NCBI RefSeq assembly: GCF_024612015.1
Contig: NZ_CP102512.1
Location: 8,494,001 to 8,558,000 of the forward strand
Length of the DNA: 64,000 nucleotides
From: Streptomyces sp. CA-210063
Lineage (GTDB): Bacteria; Actinomycetota; Actinomycetes; Streptomycetales; Streptomycetaceae
Direction of reading: 5' to 3'
Shown: positions 34,673-43,382 of the stretch, piece after piece
How positions within the stretch are numbered: the stretch's first letter is position 1
Layout of the letters: every line of letters starts with the position of its first letter
Notes under the pieces: model-generated
Told to the model about the DNA's origin: nothing
Seen by the model: the letters and a program-made list of their open reading frames with translations, nothing else
Database searches by the model: none
Program-made: the position numbers and the translations under genes

Positions 34673-36145
34673 CTACGCGGAACCCGCGTTCGTGGGCGGA
34701 TACGGTGGCCGGGCCGGGACCACGGGCCCCTTCGGCACAGGCAGCGAGGGCAGCGGCGGCAGCGCGGGCTCCCGCAACCACGCCTTGAACAGGGTGTCCA
34801 GCGGGCCGTCCGCGTACCGCGCGGCGTGCGCGGTGAACGCCGCCGTCGTGACGGCGCCACCGCGGTGGACCGAGACCCAGCCGCGCAGCATACGGAAGAA
34901 GGCGTCGTCACCGAGGGCACAGCGGACGGCGTGGACGGTGAGGCCACCGCGCTCGTAGAGGCGGTCGTCGAACATCAGCTTGCGGCCCGGGTCGGCCAGC
35001 CGCAGATCCTGGGGGAGCGCGGCGAGCTTCTGGTGCGCGGCGGCGGCCAGTTGATGCGCCGTACGGCCGCCGGAGCGCTCCGACCACAGCCACTCGGCGT
35101 ACTTGGCGAACCCCTCGTTCAGCCAGATGTGCCGCCAGTCGGCGATGGACACACTGTTGCCGAACCACTGGTGGGCCAGCTCGTGCGCGACCAGCCGCTC
35201 CGAACCCCGCGCCCCGTCCACATGGTTGGCGCCGAACAGCGACAGCCCCTGTGCCTCGACCGGGACATCGAGCTCCTCCTCGGTCACCACCACCGCGTAC
35301 TCCCCGAACGGGTACGGCCCGAAGAGCTCCTCGAACAGCTCCATCATGGCCGGCTGCCGCGCGAAGTCCCGCGAGAACTCGGTCAGCAGATGCGCCGGGA
35401 TGTGCCCGTGCTGCGGTATCCCTCCGGGACGCGGGTCGCCCAGCAGCACCGTCTGGTACTTGCCGATCGACAGACCGACCAGATAGCTCGACGTCGGCGC
35501 CGACTGCTCGAACACCCACGTCGTCGTGGACGCCTTCGCCGTACGGGTGAGCAGGCGCCCGCCCGCCACGACCTGGTACGCGGACGGCGTCGTGATCGAG
35601 ATCTGGTACGAGGCCTTGTCGGCGGGCCGGTCGTTGCACGGATACCAGGACGGCGCCCCGATCGGCTGGCTCGCCACCAGCGCCCCGTCGGTCAGCTCCT
35701 CCCAACCGAGGCCGCCCCAGGGGCTGTTCACCGGCTTGGGGTTGCCCGACCAGTGGATCTCGACCGTGAACGCGGCCCCGGGCCGGATCGGCTTGGCGGG
35801 CCGGACCCGCAGCCTGCCGCCCCGGTGCGTGTAGTGCGGCGCCCGGCCGTCGACCCGGATCCGCCCGATCTTGAAGTCGGCCAGGTTCAGGTGGAATTCG
35901 GACAGCGCCGCCCGGCCCGCGATGGCGTTCAGCCGCGCGGTGCCCGACAACCGGTTGGGCCCCGGCCGGTAGTCCACAGCCAGCTCGTACCGATGCACCC
36001 GGTAACGGGAATCACCGTTCGCCGGGAAGTACGGGTCCGGACCCACTGACTGCTGAACCGCCACTGCCGCTTCTGCTCCCCGCTCCGGTCTCGTACGACG
36101 TCCATCGTCCCCCGACGCCGCACGAGCCGCACTCAGCGGCGCCAT
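34673..36145 (-). CDS. M1 family zinc aminopeptidase, overlapping the Pls-like synthetase gene
   Basis: The 490-residue protein has the M1 catalytic set HELAHQWFGN (His321, Glu322, His325) followed 18 residues later by the third ligand Glu344 in WLNEGFAKYAE, and an N-terminal beta domain. Part of the C-terminal superhelical domain of large M1 enzymes is lacking, as in short actinobacterial members. No clear signal peptide is present, so it is probably cytoplasmic. Its ATG 36145 lies 13 bp inside the end of the Pls-like gene, so it is translationally coupled. Epsilon-poly-lysine producers contain a Zn aminopeptidase that degrades the polymer; this is the natural candidate for that role here (inference). 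Confidence 0.9.
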   Translation of the reverse strand: MAPLSAARAASGDDGRRTRPERGAEAAVAVQQSVGPDPYFPANGDSRYRVHRYELAVDYRPGPNRLSGTARLNAIAGRAALSEFHLNLADFKIGRIRVDGRAPHYTHRGGRLRVRPAKPIRPGAAFTVEIHWSGNPKPVNSPWGGLGWEELTDGALVASQPIGAPSWYPCNDRPADKASYQISITTPSAYQVVAGGRLLTRTAKASTTTWVFEQSAPTSSYLVGLSIGKYQTVLLGDPRPGGIPQHGHIPAHLLTEFSRDFARQPAMMELFEELFGPYPFGEYAVVVTEEELDVPVEAQGLSLFGANHVDGARGSERLVAHELAHQWFGNSVSIADWRHIWLNEGFAKYAEWLWSERSGGRTAHQLAAAAHQKLAALPQDLRLADPGRKLMFDDRLYERGGLTVHAVRCALGDDAFFRMLRGWVSVHRGGAVTTAAFTAHAARYADGPLDTLFKAWLREPALPPLPSLPVPKGPVVPARPPYPPTNAGSA

Positions 36146-39100
36146 GCTTCGATCGGGTTGCCCAGCCACCGCGTGTCGTCGGGAACGGACTCCGCGGCCA
36201 TGACCAGCGACGCCGGACCCAGCGTGGTGCGGGCCCCGACCACACTGCCGGGCAGGACGATTCCGCCCGGGCCCAGGGTTGCGCCCTCACGGAGTTCCAC
36301 AGTATCCGTACGCAAGATCCGGTCGTGGAAGAGGTGGGTCTGGAGCACACAGCCCCGGTTCACCGTCGCCCCGTCGCCGAGCGTGACGAGATCGGTCTCC
36401 GGCAGCCAGTAGCTCTCCACCCACACGCCCTTGCCGATTGTCGCACCGAGCCCGCGCAGCCACACGTTCAGCACCGGCGTACCGGGCACCGAACCGGCCA
36501 GCCACGGCACGGCCAGCACCTCCACGAAGGTGTCCGCCAGCTCGTTGCGCCACACGAAACCGCTCCACAGCGGATGCTCACCGCTCCGGTGACGCCCCAC
36601 GAGCAGCCACTTCGCGACGACGGACGCCAGACAGGCCAGCAGGCCCACCCCGAGCAGCACGACCCCGCCCAGCAGCCACGCCCAGCCGTCCAGCACGCTC
36701 AGCACCGCCACCGTCAGCAGCGCGAGGCCCGCCGAGCAGAACACCGGCACGATCCGGCACAGCTCCACCAGAGCACGCGCCCACAGCAGCCGCGCGGGCG
36801 GCTCGTACGTCAGACTCTGGTCGCCACTCGCCGCCGACCTGGGCAGCTTCACCGGCGGCAGCCCCAGATACGAGCTGCCCTTCTTGGCCTTCTTCGGCGT
36901 CGCCGACAGCACCCCCACCAGGCCGCCGTCCGGCACGGAACGCCCCGGCGCGGTCATCCCGGAGTTCCCGAGGAACGCCCGCCGCCCGATCTCCGCCCGC
37001 CCGATCCGCAGCCAGCCACCGCCCAGCTCGTACGGCGCGGTCAACGTGTCGTCGGCGAGGAACGCCCCGTCGCCGACCGTCGTCAGACTCGGCAGCGCGA
37101 GCACGGTGGACACCTCCGCGCCCCGCCCGATCCGCATCCCGAGCAGCCGCAGCCACACCGGCGTGACCAGCCCGGCGTACAGCGGGAACAGCGTCTGCCG
37201 CGAACGGTCCATCAGCTGGGTGACCGTCCAGGCCTGCCACCCGATCCGGCTGTGCGTGGGATGCGTACCCTCCCGCAGCCCCAGGCTCAGCAGCCGTACG
37301 GCGACGAGCAGCAGCAGCGCGTACGCCGCCCCGAACGCCAGCGTGGCGGGCACCAGCCCGAGCGCCGCACCCCGCGACGCGGCGCCGAGCCCGGCGTCCG
37401 GATCCACGAACAGGCTCAGCACGGCCAGCGCGGCGACCCCGCAGACCAGCGGCAGCGCGGTCAGCCCGACTCCGGTGACGCCGTACGACACCCGCCAGAA
37501 CAGGCCCCGCCGCGGCCGCTCCTTGGGCCAGTTCCGCTTCGCCTTGCCCAGCTTGACCGCCGGCGCCCCGGCCCAGCGCTGCCCGGTGGGGATCTGCCCG
37601 GCGACCGCCGACCCCGGCGCCACCTCGGCCCGCTTGCCGACCCTGGCCCCCGGCAGCAGCATGCTCCGCGTCCCGACGACCGCACCGGCGCCCACCTTGA
37701 CGGGCCCGATCTCCAGCCGGTCCCCGTCCAGCCAGTAGCCGGAGAGGTCCACCTCGGACTCCACGGCGGCACCCCGGCCGAGTTTGAGCATCCCGGTCAC
37801 CGGCGGCAGCGCGTGCAGATCGACATCGGCCCCGACCTTGGCACCCAGCGCCCGCGCGTACCGCTCCAGCCAGACCCCGGTCAGCGAGGTCGCCCCGCTG
37901 AACTCGGCCAGCCGCTCGGCCGCCCACAGCCGCAGATGCACGCTCCCGCCCCGCGCGTACCGCCCCGGCTCGACGCCGCGCAGCAGCAGCCGCGCCCCGC
38001 CCGCCGCGATCGCGAGCCGCCCCGGCGGGGTGAAGATCAGCACCGCCCCGGCCGCCACGGCCCACCAGGGCGCGGTCGGCAGCCAGGCGTACGGCCCGAG
38101 CAGATTCCCGAGCGCGGCCAGCGGAACGATCCAGCGCAGCCCGAGCAGCGTGAACAGCGGGACGAGCAGCAGGAGCTGGACGACTCTCGCGCGCACCGGC
38201 ACGGGCGCCACGGCCTGCCTGGGACCGTCCGCCTCGCCGGACTCCTCCAGATACCGGGCCAGCTTCCGCAAGGTCGGCCGCTGGTAGATGTCCACCACGG
38301 CGACGCTCGGATACCGGCTCCGCAGCCTGGTCGTCAGCTGGGCGGCGGCCAGGCTGCCGCCGCCGATCGCGAAGAAGTCGTCCTGGGCGCCACCGACCGG
38401 GATGCCCAGCACTTCGGTCCACTGCTCGGCGAGCCACGCCTCGGTCCCGTACAGGTCCTCGGCCGGCCCGGCGCTCTCCACGTCGGCCAGCGGCCACGGC
38501 AGCGCGTTCCGGTCGACCTTCCCGGACGTCCGGGTGGGCAGCTCCGCCACCGGCGCCAGCAGCGGCACCAACGCGGCCGGCAGCTCGGCCCGCAACTTCT
38601 CCACGGCCGCCGCCCGGTCCCACCCGTCCTGGGTGACCACATACCCGACGAGCAGCTGATTCCCGCTCCGCGCGGTCCGTACGGCGGCCGCGGCGCCCGC
38701 GACACCGGGCAGCGCCTGCAACGCGGCGTCGACCTCGCCCAGCTCGATCCGCCGCCCACCGAGCTTGATCTGCTCATCGGCCCGCCCGAGGAAGACCAGC
38801 CCCTCGGGCTCGGCCTTGACCAGGTCACCACTGCGATAGGCCCGCTCCCAGCCCAGCGACTCCAGCGGCGCGTACTTCTCCGCGTCCTTCTCGGCGTCGA
38901 GATACCGTGCGAGCCCCACGCCACCGATCACGAGCTGCCCGCTGGCACCCATCGGCACGGGCTCCCCGGCCTCGTCGACGACGGCCAGCTCCCAGCCGTT
39001 CAGCGGCAGTCCGATCCGGATCGGCTCCTCGCCGGACATCAGCGAGGCGCAGGCGACGACGGTGGCCTCGGTCGGCCCGTAGGTGTTCCAGACCTCGCGC

Positions 39101-39999
39101 CCCTCCGTCACCAGCCGCTGCGCCAGCTCCGGCGGGCAGGCCTCACCGCCGAAGATCAGCAGCCGTACGTCGTTGAGCGTCTCGGGCTCCCACAGCGCGG
39201 CCAGCGTCGGCACGGTCGACACGACCGTGATGTCCTGCTCGACCAGCCAGGGCCCCAGATCGGCACCGCTGCGGACCTGCGCACGCGGCACCGGCACCAG
39301 ACAGGCCCCGTACCGCCAGGCCAGCCACATCTCCTCGCAGGACGCGTCGAAGGCCACCGAAAGGCCGGCCATCACGCGGTCCCCGGGCCCGATCGGCTCC
39401 TCGGCGAGGAACAACTCGGCCTCGGCGTCCACGAACGCGGCCGCGCTGCGGTGGCTCACGGCCACACCCTTGGGCTTCCCGGTCGAACCGGAGGTGAAGA
39501 TGATCCACGCGTCGTGCTCGACCCCGGGCCGCGCGGCGGGGGAGTCGGACGCGCCGTTGACGGTCAGCCGGTGCCCGGCCCCGATGACCGCCCGCACCTC
39601 CGCCTCGCCGAACACCAGCTCGGCCCGCTCATCGGGGTCCTCGGCGTCGACGGGCACATAGGCGGCCCCCGCGGCCAGCACCGCCAGGATGGCGACATAC
39701 AGCTCATTGGTGCCCGACGGCACCCGCACCCCGACCCGGTCCCCGAGGCCGACCCCCGCCGCCCCCAGCCCTCGTCGCAGGTTCTCCACCTCGACGGCCA
39801 GCGCGCGATAGGTCAGCCGGCGGGTCCCGTCGTCCAGCGCGGGCTCGTCCGGATACGACCGCACGGACGCCTCGAAGATGTCGACGAGCGTGCGGGGCGG
39901 CGCCGCCGGACCGGCGGTGAAACGCGCCGACCCGTCGAATCCCTCCGTCAGCTCTCCGTCGAGCAGCGTGAGGTCGGGACTTTCGTATACGGCGGCCAT
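36133..39999 (-). CDS. Pls-like non-ribosomal peptide synthetase (epsilon-poly-L-lysine synthetase architecture)
   Basis: The 1288-residue membrane protein has an adenylation domain at residues about 40-500 with A3 IIFTSGSTGKPKGVAVSHRS, A4 FDASCEEMW, A5 NTYGPTEATV, A7 YRSGDLV and A10 RTSGKVDRNALP, then a carrier domain with Ser549 in FFAIGGGSLAAAQL. The C-terminal half has three pairs of membrane helices (about 605-660, 842-905, 1083-1130), each followed by a left-handed beta-helix (hexapeptide) domain. This is the layout of S. albulus Pls (about 1319 residues, six membrane helices, three tandem soluble domains), which makes poly-lysine. A hand alignment gives specificity residues D-A-E-S-I-G-T-V-V-K. 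ATG 39999 follows GCGAGG. The product is predicted to be a poly-amino acid; which one is unproven. Confidence 0.92.
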   Translation of the reverse strand: MAAVYESPDLTLLDGELTEGFDGSARFTAGPAAPPRTLVDIFEASVRSYPDEPALDDGTRRLTYRALAVEVENLRRGLGAAGVGLGDRVGVRVPSGTNELYVAILAVLAAGAAYVPVDAEDPDERAELVFGEAEVRAVIGAGHRLTVNGASDSPAARPGVEHDAWIIFTSGSTGKPKGVAVSHRSAAAFVDAEAELFLAEEPIGPGDRVMAGLSVAFDASCEEMWLAWRYGACLVPVPRAQVRSGADLGPWLVEQDITVVSTVPTLAALWEPETLNDVRLLIFGGEACPPELAQRLVTEGREVWNTYGPTEATVVACASLMSGEEPIRIGLPLNGWELAVVDEAGEPVPMGASGQLVIGGVGLARYLDAEKDAEKYAPLESLGWERAYRSGDLVKAEPEGLVFLGRADEQIKLGGRRIELGEVDAALQALPGVAGAAAAVRTARSGNQLLVGYVVTQDGWDRAAAVEKLRAELPAALVPLLAPVAELPTRTSGKVDRNALPWPLADVESAGPAEDLYGTEAWLAEQWTEVLGIPVGGAQDDFFAIGGGSLAAAQLTTRLRSRYPSVAVVDIYQRPTLRKLARYLEESGEADGPRQAVAPVPVRARVVQLLLLVPLFTLLGLRWIVPLAALGNLLGPYAWLPTAPWWAVAAGAVLIFTPPGRLAIAAGGARLLLRGVEPGRYARGGSVHLRLWAAERLAEFSGATSLTGVWLERYARALGAKVGADVDLHALPPVTGMLKLGRGAAVESEVDLSGYWLDGDRLEIGPVKVGAGAVVGTRSMLLPGARVGKRAEVAPGSAVAGQIPTGQRWAGAPAVKLGKAKRNWPKERPRRGLFWRVSYGVTGVGLTALPLVCGVAALAVLSLFVDPDAGLGAASRGAALGLVPATLAFGAAYALLLLVAVRLLSLGLREGTHPTHSRIGWQAWTVTQLMDRSRQTLFPLYAGLVTPVWLRLLGMRIGRGAEVSTVLALPSLTTVGDGAFLADDTLTAPYELGGGWLRIGRAEIGRRAFLGNSGMTAPGRSVPDGGLVGVLSATPKKAKKGSSYLGLPPVKLPRSAASGDQSLTYEPPARLLWARALVELCRIVPVFCSAGLALLTVAVLSVLDGWAWLLGGVVLLGVGLLACLASVVAKWLLVGRHRSGEHPLWSGFVWRNELADTFVEVLAVPWLAGSVPGTPVLNVWLRGLGATIGKGVWVESYWLPETDLVTLGDGATVNRGCVLQTHLFHDRILRTDTVELREGATLGPGGIVLPGSVVGARTTLGPASLVMAAESVPDDTRWLGNPIEAWRR

Positions 40000-40095
40000 C
40001 GGATCCTCGCCTCTTGTACCCGGTCCGTCCGGGGGCGCCGGTGGGCCCACAGGTCTGCCTGGGGATGTTTCCGTTCCGGCATGAACAAGCCCCAT

Positions 40096-40101
40096 ACTCT
40101 A
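40096..40101 (-). promoter_or_regulatory. candidate -10 box for the Pls-like gene
   Basis: Leftward TAGAGT, about 97 bp before the start codon. No convincing -35 was found, so this is weak. The rest of the 240 bp between the synthetase and the tRNA terminator holds no gene. Confidence 0.3.
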
Positions 40102-40242
40102 GTGCTCGGGTGACTACGGCCTGTCGTGTCGGCCACGGGGAGGTATCCGCCGGGGGCCCGGAGAGGTAGGCGCGACGGCCCTGACCTGTGGTTTTCCCCG
40201 CCGGTAGAGACGTCCCCCACATTTCGTCGGTGTTAACGCAGA

Positions 40243-40270: not shown

Positions 40271-40280
40271 CGCCACTGTG

Positions 40281-40365
40281 TGTCCGAGGGGGGACTTGAA
40301 CCCCCACGCCCGATAAAGGGCACTAGCACCTCAAGCTAGCGCGTCTGCCATTCCGCCACCCGGAC
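40281..40365 (-). tRNA. tRNA-Leu (anticodon GAG)
   Basis: This is an 85-nt class II tRNA. The acceptor stem GTCCGGG pairs with CTCGGAC with one G-T wobble, followed by discriminator A. The D-arm is TGGCGGAATGGCAGACGCG, the anticodon stem-loop GCTAGCTTGAGGTGCTAGT holds GAG, a long variable arm (GCCCTTTATCGGGC) follows, and the T-arm is GGGGGTTCAAGTCCCCC. CCA is not encoded. Confidence 0.97.
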
Positions 40366-40563: not shown

Positions 40564-41889
40564 GTGAGCGAGACGGACACGGGCAGGCGCGTGACCGGCG
40601 AGGACGAGGTCGTCGACCTCTGCCGCGAGCTGATCCAGATCGACACCAGCAACTTCGGCGACCACTCGGGCCCGGGCGAGCGCAAGGCCGCCGAGTACGT
40701 CGCCGAGAAGCTCGCCGAGGTGGGGCTCGAACCGAAGATCTTCGAGTCGCACCCGGGTCGCGCCTCCACGGTGGCCCGTATCGAGGGCGAGGACCGGTCC
40801 CGGCCCGCGCTGCTCATCCACGGTCACACCGACGTCGTCCCGGCCAACGCGGCGGACTGGACCCACCATCCGTTCTCCGGCGAGGTCGCGGACGGCTGTG
40901 TGTGGGGCCGGGGCGCGGTCGACATGAAGGACATGGACGCGATGACGCTGGCGGTCGTACGCGACCGGCTGCGCAGCGGCCGCAAGCCCCCGCGCGACAT
41001 CGTGCTGGCCTTCCTCGCGGACGAGGAGGCCGGCGGCACGTACGGCGCGAAGCACCTCGTCAAGAACCACGCGGATCTCTTCGAGGGCGTCACCGAGGCG
41101 ATCAGCGAGGTCGGCGGCTTCTCGTTCACCGTGAGCGAGCAGCGGCGGCTCTATCTGATCCAGACGGCCGAGAAGGGCATGCACTGGATGAAGCTCACCG
41201 TGGCAGGCACGGCCGGGCACGGGTCGATGATCCACCGGGACAACGCCATCACCGAGCTGTCGGAGGCCGTCGCGCGCCTCGGCCGCCACCAGTTCCCGGT
41301 GCGGGTCACCAAGACCACCCGGGCCTTCCTCGACGAGCTCGGCGACGCGCTCGGCACCGAGCTCGACCCGGAGGACATGGAGGGCACCCTCGCCAGGCTC
41401 GGCGGCATCGCCAAGCTCATCGGCGCGACCCTGCGGAACACCGCCAACCCCACGCAGCTCGGCGCCGGCTACAAGGTCAACGTCATCCCGGGCGAGGCCA
41501 CCGCGCATGTCGACGGGCGGTTCCTGCCCGGGTTCGAGGAGGAGTTCCTCGCCGACCTCGACACGATCCTCGGCCCGAACGTGCGGCGCGAGGACGTGCA
41601 CTCCGACAAGGCGCTGGAGACCTCCTTCGACGGGGCGATCGTCGACGCCATGCAGTCCGCGCTGCTCGCCGAGGACCCGGCCGCGAAGGCGGTCCCGTAC
41701 ATGCTCTCCGGCGGTACGGACGCCAAGTCCTTCGACGACCTCGGTATCCGCGGCTTCGGCTTCGCGCCGCTCAAGCTGCCGCCGGAGCTGGACTTCGCGG
41801 GCATGTTCCACGGCGTCGACGAAAGGGTGCCGGTGGAGGGTCTGAAGTTCGGTGTGCGCGTGCTCGACCGTTTCATCGACGCGTCCTGA
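40564..41889 (+). CDS. M20 family metallopeptidase
   Basis: In this 441-residue protein the metal-site segments of the M20/ArgE/DapE family are present in order: HGHTDVVPA, WGRGAVDMKDMDAM, FLADEEAGG with the general-base Glu pair, and a C-terminal GGTDAKSFDDL plus FHGVDERV. It hydrolyses a peptide or N-acyl amino acid in the cytoplasm. GTG 40564 has GGGAGGAAC upstream. From memory its position next to chpH/chpC is conserved in streptomycetes. The substrate is unknown. Confidence 0.9.
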   Translation: MSETDTGRRVTGEDEVVDLCRELIQIDTSNFGDHSGPGERKAAEYVAEKLAEVGLEPKIFESHPGRASTVARIEGEDRSRPALLIHGHTDVVPANAADWTHHPFSGEVADGCVWGRGAVDMKDMDAMTLAVVRDRLRSGRKPPRDIVLAFLADEEAGGTYGAKHLVKNHADLFEGVTEAISEVGGFSFTVSEQRRLYLIQTAEKGMHWMKLTVAGTAGHGSMIHRDNAITELSEAVARLGRHQFPVRVTKTTRAFLDELGDALGTELDPEDMEGTLARLGGIAKLIGATLRNTANPTQLGAGYKVNVIPGEATAHVDGRFLPGFEEEFLADLDTILGPNVRREDVHSDKALETSFDGAIVDAMQSALLAEDPAAKAVPYMLSGGTDAKSFDDLGIRGFGFAPLKLPPELDFAGMFHGVDERVPVEGLKFGVRVLDRFIDAS

Positions 41890-42425: not shown

Positions 42426-43382
42426 ATGCGACAGGTCACCCGCAAAGGCCTCATGACGGTGGCGGCCGCTTCCGGCGTTCTCGCCGCAGCGGGCGGTTAC
42501 GCGCACGCCGACTCCGGCGCGCAGGGATCCGCCACCAACTCGCCCGGCGTACTGTCCGGCAACACCGTGCAGGCGCCGGTGGAGGCCGAGGTCAACGTCT
42601 GCGGCAACACGGTCAACGTGGTCGGGCTGCTCAACCCGGCGGCGGGCAACAAGTGTTCCAACGGCGGTGGGGGCGGCAAGCACGGCGGCGGTTCCGGTTC
42701 GTCGCACGGCGGCTCCCAGGCCCACGGTCACACCGGCGATTCACCGGGCGTGGCTTCCGGGAACACCGTGCAGGCTCCGGTGAACGTGCCGGTCAACGCG
42801 TGCGGCAACAGCGTCAACGTGATCGGCGTCGGCAACACGGCCATGGGCAACGACTGCTCCAACGGCGGAGGCGGCGGCCACCACGGTGGTGGTTCCGGTT
42901 CGTCGTACGGCGGCTCCCACGCCGACGGTCACGCGAGCAACTCGCCGGGTGTGGCGTCCGGCAACCACGTGCAGGCTCCGGTCGATGTGCCGGTCAACGT
43001 GTGCGGCAACACCATCAGTGTGGTCGGGATCGGCAACGGGGTCACGGGCAACGACTGCGGGAACTCGGGCGGCGGAGGGGCGCACGAGAACCCGGGTGGC
43101 GGCCACCAGAACCCGCCGGGCGACTCCGAGGAGGCGTCCCCGCAGCAGCCCGGGAAGCCGGGACAGCCGGGTGGGCCCGGGCAGCCGGGCAACCCCGGCG
43201 GTGAGGTCCCCGGTGGTGACACCAACACCCCGGGTACGCAGACCGTCACCCAGCCCGACGGTGTCGCGCAGCTCGCCCAGACCGGTGCCGAGGTGCCCCT
43301 CGGCCTGGCACTGTCGGTGGGCGCGGGGACGCTCCTCGGGGGCGCCCTGATCTACCGCAAGGCACGGGCCGCCGCTCTGTAA
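42426..43382 (+). CDS. chpC: long chaplin with three chaplin domains and a sortase signal
   Basis: The 318-residue precursor has a signal peptide to about residue 28, then three chaplin domains (about residues 30-78, 102-146 and 170-214), each with the SPGxxSGNxVQAPV and CGNxxxVxGxxN core and a cysteine pair. Gly/His/Ser linkers GGGSGSSHGG and GGGSGSSYGG separate them. A Pro/Gly-rich wall-spanning stretch follows, then the sorting signal LAQTGAEVP, a hydrophobic helix and a basic tail (RKARAAAL). Long chaplins known to me have two domains; the second and third here look like a recent tandem duplication of about 68 residues. It is anchored to the wall by a class E type sortase encoded elsewhere. 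ATG 42426 is used. Confidence 0.92.
   Translation: MRQVTRKGLMTVAAASGVLAAAGGYAHADSGAQGSATNSPGVLSGNTVQAPVEAEVNVCGNTVNVVGLLNPAAGNKCSNGGGGGKHGGGSGSSHGGSQAHGHTGDSPGVASGNTVQAPVNVPVNACGNSVNVIGVGNTAMGNDCSNGGGGGHHGGGSGSSYGGSHADGHASNSPGVASGNHVQAPVDVPVNVCGNTISVVGIGNGVTGNDCGNSGGGGAHENPGGGHQNPPGDSEEASPQQPGKPGQPGGPGQPGNPGGEVPGGDTNTPGTQTVTQPDGVAQLAQTGAEVPLGLALSVGAGTLLGGALIYRKARAAAL

Follow-up and report, generated by a model that had tools for sequence, protein, structure and literature searches.

What does the large Pls-like protein encoded near the middle of this stretch of Streptomyces sp. CA-210063 DNA make, if it makes anything? The window, the whole 64,000-nucleotide stretch that was analysed, comes from a genome that is a single contig of 10.86 Mb. 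The initial annotation, made from the sequence alone, likened the protein to epsilon-poly-L-lysine synthetase (Pls) and proposed that the strain might make a cationic polymer not yet assigned to it. Epsilon-poly-L-lysine is a natural food preservative.

Family membership and substrate code

Judged by its sequence, the protein is a member of the Pls family of membrane poly-amino-acid synthetases. It matches the NCBI Pls/PosA domain model TIGR02353 over all of its length (model positions 1-695 of 695) and scores 837.3 bits where the cut-off is 423.1. Pfam at E <= 0.001 finds AMP-binding, PP-binding, Hexapep and AMP-binding_C domains only, the last scoring slightly under its cut-off, and the same search finds no condensation or thioesterase domain. 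The reading frame extends without a stop as far as an ATG at 40095, which would give 1320 aa; the later ATG at 39999, which has a plausible ribosome-binding site and is the start of the database entry, is preferred. The nearest homologs among the matches listed are Streptomyces proteins with 95% identity, from S. europaeiscabiei and Streptomyces sp. NBC_00391. In that search 7996 candidates were scored and the best 120 considered. The names of these 120 are generic; "Pls/PosA family non-ribosomal peptide synthetase" is an example. They give no sign of the outcome that the initial annotation had named as a refutation, a closely matching Pls-like clade whose known product is a different one.

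A 1262-aa open frame lies antisense to the gene at 36325-40113 (+). Such a frame could argue that the pls frame is itself a chance artefact of GC-rich sequence, a reading that is rejected and to which we give virtually no probability, because homologs of equal length carry the same domains and the TIGR02353 score is far over the cut-off. The antisense frame is probably a by-product of the high GC content.

Table 1. Coordinates of the pls-type gene, its domains and neighbouring features in the window.
Feature	Position	Strand	Evidence or remark
pls-type gene, 1288 aa	36133..39999	-	ORF calling; TIGR02353 837.3 bits; database entry P0003
Adenylation (A) domain, residues 28-505, code DAESIGTVVK	38485..39918	-	7wew 652.9 bits; code from alignment
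Carrier (T) domain, residues 520-585, Ser549	38245..38442	-	PF00550 45.2 bits
Membrane helix pair 1, residues about 602-672	37984..38196	-	hydropathy; model H15-46, H58-69, H71-85
Beta-helix (hexapeptide) domain C1, residues about 720-819	37543..37842	-	
Membrane helix pair 2, residues about 833-905	37285..37503	-	hydropathy; model H246-274, H284-318
Beta-helix domain C2, residues about 955-1046	36862..37137	-	model
Membrane helix pair 3, residues about 1083-1133	36601..36753	-	two hydropathy peaks; model
Beta-helix domain C3, residues about 1186-1280, motif QTHLFHDR	36160..36444	-	model; conservation
pldII-type M1 metallopeptidase gene, 490 aa from ATG	34673..36145	-	PF01433 90.2 bits
tRNA-Leu (gag) gene	40280..40365	-	tRNA scan; just upstream of pls, outside operon
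M20-family peptidase, conserved flanking gene	40564..41889	+	PF01546; context
Chaplin gene, three ChpA-C stretches	42426-43382		243.5 bits

The best solved structure for the A domain is 7wew, named epsilon-poly-L-lysine synthase, which we take to be the A domain of S. albulus Pls. The A domain of the S. albulus-type protein P0127 is nearly the same as 7wew, with three visible differing positions, and is identical to that of the window protein at 318 of 476 aligned positions (66.8%). The alignment from which the code was read (MAFFT) has 107 rows: the window protein, 83 loci (L009-L091) and 23 homolog proteins. Its ten pocket positions follow what we take to be Stachelhaus numbering. They were placed via sequence motifs, and their order agrees with the codes given in PMC10522769. 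The window protein and P0127 share the code DAESIGTVVK, which is present in 106 of the 107 rows; these rows are mutually dependent and most were chosen for similarity to the window protein. Eighty of the aligned loci are the best 80 of 589 confirmed relatives, so that near homologs are over-represented in the set; one protein appears twice, as L089 and as P0123. The sole odd row, L091, is a PosA-type relative from an A. baumannii plasmid with the code DMEHNGTVSK and about 31% identity to the window protein, and likewise is not such a close match. At code position 2 the window protein has Ala219; the ornithine-type Met is absent. At this position (Met218) lysine enzymes are described as having Ala and the PDAP synthetase Phe (PMC10522769). 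As read from the alignment, the substrate code of the A domain is the lysine code.

Carrier domain and C-terminal half

The domain plan in the initial annotation (an A domain, a carrier domain with Ser549 and three helix pairs alternating with hexapeptide domains in 1288 residues) is confirmed by Pfam, hydropathy and a structural model (Table 1). The carrier serine is kept in 107/107 aligned rows. Identity to P0127 is 41.5% in the carrier domain and 54.4% in the C-terminal half. An AlphaFold2 model of residues 588-1288, calculated from a hand-chosen alignment of 32 rows (pLDDT 86.0, pTM 0.88), shows the C-terminal half as three repeats of membrane helices plus a beta-helix domain. The second helix of pair 1 is under the hydropathy threshold and is seen in the model alone. 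Pair 3 is one 51-residue helix in the model, its turn unseen, and two peaks in the hydropathy plot, and the confidence of the model falls toward the end of C2. Structure searches with the model match hexapeptide acyltransferases, in alignments that span mainly the first repeat (model residues 84-237). The family score, the lysine code and this model all bear out the earlier proposal of a membrane poly-amino-acid synthetase of the Pls type. A model of the same kind, also with three beta-helices, has already been published for PosA (PMC10522769).

His1222, in the C3 motif QTHLFHDR, is the only invariant histidine of the C-terminal half (35/35 rows, including L091, which shares QTHLF-DR with the window protein). 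His729 in the first repeat, His688 and His1225 are each kept in 34/35 rows, and the second repeat of the window protein has no histidine. Since the catalytic base of hexapeptide acetyltransferases is often a histidine, we infer by analogy that His1222 is a candidate catalytic residue.

Partner peptidase, neighbourhood and distribution

An M1 metallopeptidase gene follows pls, its ATG (36145) lying inside the end of pls with a 13-base overlap. Neither this gene nor the lysine code was mentioned in the initial annotation. The zinc motif of the peptidase, HELAHQW...NEG, is intact; its start, judged by eye from the sequence, has no clear hydrophobic leader. It shares 209 of 451 positions (46%) with the peptidase that neighbours an annotated pls in NZ_CP109461. 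Same-strand M1 peptidase homologs are found directly after pls in 82/82 related loci, all chosen by similarity (the best 80 of 589 relatives plus L089 and L090). The zinc-motif pattern matches in 79 of them, the loci without a match being L063, L074 and L086, and an ATG or GTG stands at the same overlap position in at least 32/82 (hand count). In S. albulus, translation of pldII is coupled to that of pls; the gene serves in polymer degradation and is required for self-protection, and PldII is reported to be located outside the membrane (PMC9223678). The best reading of the pair in the window is a pls-pldII operon.

The ORFs scanned with Pfam between about 29.6 and 48.2 kb encode GntR, GntP, M1, M20, chaplin and aldo/keto reductase proteins, and seven others have no Pfam match. 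Among them there is no sbnA/sbnB-type, dat or ask gene and no lysine 2,3-aminomutase gene. Rfam was searched over 30-45 kb and tRNA genes over the whole window, and both found the tRNA-Leu gene and nothing else. In 30/82 loci pls has M20 peptidase and chaplin genes upstream, and a GntR gene is present in 26/82 (in L047 the match is weak and lies on the opposite side), counts to be read knowing that several of the 82 loci end too soon to show these genes. The M20 peptidase has matches in 198/199 Streptomyces genomes. Among the 44 genomes whose copy is at least 84% identical, the window's included, it lies within about 7 kb of pls in 35 by hand count; in the remaining nine it is farther away on the same contig (six), far off (one) or on another contig (two). 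Transfer RNA genes are usual insertion sites of mobile elements, and because tRNA-Leu lies between the M20 gene and pls, insertion there may explain the variable gap.

Phylogenetic reconstruction places the window group apart from a 17-row S. albulus-type group that holds P0127 (support 95) and includes P0196 (S. roseoverticillatus) and P0239 (K. aureofaciens). Both of these species are given as proven producers in PMC8117764, which is not tied to P0196 or P0239 themselves. The tree is a quick maximum-likelihood phylogeny of 56 rows hand-picked from the 107, rooted at the midpoint for drawing only; the branch of L091 is very long, support is weak for 14 of the 53 inner branches, and the C. variabile Pls is absent. 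In the comparison with Pls called for by the initial annotation, the family score and the code agree with a Pls; the window protein as a whole is identical to P0127 at 731 of 1255 aligned positions (58.2%) and falls outside its clade.

Related genes are widespread. TIGR02353 matches over the cut-off occur in 110/199 Streptomyces genomes, split forms counted; in control genomes the same search gave a match in 13/14, over the cut-off in one. With the C-terminal half of the window protein as query, 78/199 Streptomyces genomes match at E <= 1e-100. In both searches of the Streptomyces genomes up to five candidates were scored per genome. Identity classes in the second were counted by hand: 63/199 genomes (the window's own included) have a copy with 77-100% identity, 6/199 one with 61-65% and 10/199 one with 52-56%. 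The last class lies at the S. albulus-type distance, in terms of identity and not of tree placement. One genome (G146) falls into two classes, with one copy at 77-100% and another at 52-56%, and in a further one (G139) the copy is cut short at query residue 73. By these identities, the pls lineage met most often in the sampled Streptomyces genomes differs from the industrial S. albulus lineage.

Plasmids of Mycobacterium avium (four) and M. intracellulare (one) also carry near full-length genes of the Pls/PosA family, with 95% of the query covered and 57.6% identity to the window protein.

Predicted product, alternatives and a second locus

The predicted product of the operon is, with high probability, epsilon-poly-L-lysine, a known polymer and not a new one. 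The lysine code together with the coupled pldII-type gene makes this much likelier than a new polymer; the initial annotation had not fixed a product. The sequence basis covers the family, the domain plan, the lysine code, the operon partner and the conserved pairing; the reaction and the role of pldII come from the literature on S. albulus and C. variabile, and the product named for the window protein itself is our prediction. S. albulus has the same plan of A domain, T domain and membrane/beta-helix repeats, the same code and an M1 peptidase gene directly after pls. Coryneform Pls proteins were assigned by operon and code, and the C. variabile Pls, which shares 51% identity with Streptomyces Pls, produced epsilon-poly-L-lysine in S. 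coelicolor (PMC8117764). Strain M145 of S. coelicolor lacks a pls of its own (PMC8117764). By the description in that paper, without alignment to the window protein, C. variabile Pls also shares the domain plan and the operon with a peptidase. Experimental work on the window protein or a member of its clade, and a clade member with a proven product, were not found in the open-licence literature. The modest carrier-domain identity to P0127, and the lack of a clear leader on a peptidase whose S. albulus counterpart is reported outside the membrane (PMC9223678), also weigh against the prediction.

By analogy, the A domain would activate L-lysine with ATP and load it onto the phosphopantetheine arm on Ser549. 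The C-terminal half, which is anchored in the membrane and was modelled with a hexapeptide acyltransferase fold, would then add the lysyl group to the growing lysine chain at its epsilon-amino end, so that epsilon-poly-L-lysine would form with neither a condensation nor a thioesterase domain. The M1 peptidase encoded by the coupled gene would trim the polymer and shield the producer.

A Pls-like synthetase could keep this architecture and make another cationic polymer, such as poly-ornithine, poly-diaminobutyrate, poly-diaminopropionate or poly-beta-lysine. PosA (delta-poly-L-ornithine, A. baumannii) has the same overall plan and a three-beta-helix model, and the Streptomyces poly-diaminopropionate (PDAP) and poly-diaminobutyrate (PDAB) synthetases share the family architecture, which alone is therefore not product-specific (PMC10522769, PMC8117764, PMC4668381). 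A change of product in the window clade is conceivable and still compatible with the phylogeny, because the window protein lies outside the 17-row group of P0127. We consider it unlikely, however, in view of the lysine code, which differs from that of the PosA-type row, and of Ala at the Met218 position, as in lysine enzymes (PMC10522769). The neighbour is an M1 peptidase, the same as beside pls, whereas posA is a single-gene operon (PMC10522769), and the flanking ORFs scanned with Pfam include no diaminobutyrate or diaminopropionate biosynthesis gene. By description, unaligned here, the PDAP and PDAB synthetases differ in pocket and gene neighbourhood, and the context of a pls-peptidase operon is unlike that of beta-PDAP and gamma-PDAB synthetases (PMC8117764).

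Compatible with the epsilon-poly-L-lysine reading, and judged independently of it, is the suggestion that the operon is silent in this strain, or that its chains are too short for an antimicrobial effect, and that no polycation accumulates. C. variabile has a functional pls, yet its culture held no detectable polymer or Pls protein (PMC8117764), and one sampled genome, G140, has a broken ortholog. On the other hand, the frame, the code, the carrier serine and the zinc motif of the peptidase are intact, and 62 sampled genomes (the window's included) have a copy of at least 77% identity with no internal stop, which argues for selection on function. We regard this suggestion as a serious possibility, though a somewhat doubtful one. 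The window clade might also consist of functionally distinct lysine polymerases, making for example short or cell-retained chains for development or stress. This would fit the chaplin genes nearby and a partner peptidase on which no leader is obvious; we hold it to be quite improbable. The broken ortholog in G140 (G140:C1:8264174-8266253) consists of two overlapping pieces, one with an internal stop.

With epsilon-poly-L-lysine as the predicted product, the window locus is an ordinary, common member of a known enzyme family. A single such gene adds little; these loci have their own antiSMASH class, NAPAA, which is a prediction label and no proof of product. In a Streptomyces pangenome, 730 clusters match epsilon-poly-L-lysine above 80% (PMC11734326), and in an antiSMASH case from S. 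naphthomycinicus genome data and thin-layer chromatography are the sole grounds on which a product is suggested (PMC11061393). Should the window lineage share this product, the number of potential producer strains is large; should it not, automatic annotation is in error for many loci.

The same genome contains a second, split Pls-like system (L092:9379-11889 onward, at about 2.175-2.184 Mb of its contig C1). Its 836-aa protein lacks an A domain but combines a carrier domain with the complete TIGR02353 C-terminal domain (793 bits). After it come an A-T NRPS protein, an oxygenase of the TauD family, an SbnB-type 2,3-diaminopropionate enzyme that scores 403.8 bits (cut-off 326.9), and a PALP enzyme. 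The locus was considered as a duplicate of the window gene and rejected as such, being a split, different system; its product may contain diaminopropionate. In this genome the window gene and the split protein are the two matches listed over the TIGR02353 cut-off, and there is a third, weaker match besides. Many Streptomyces TIGR02353 matches with frames of about 820-1000 aa may be of the same split type.
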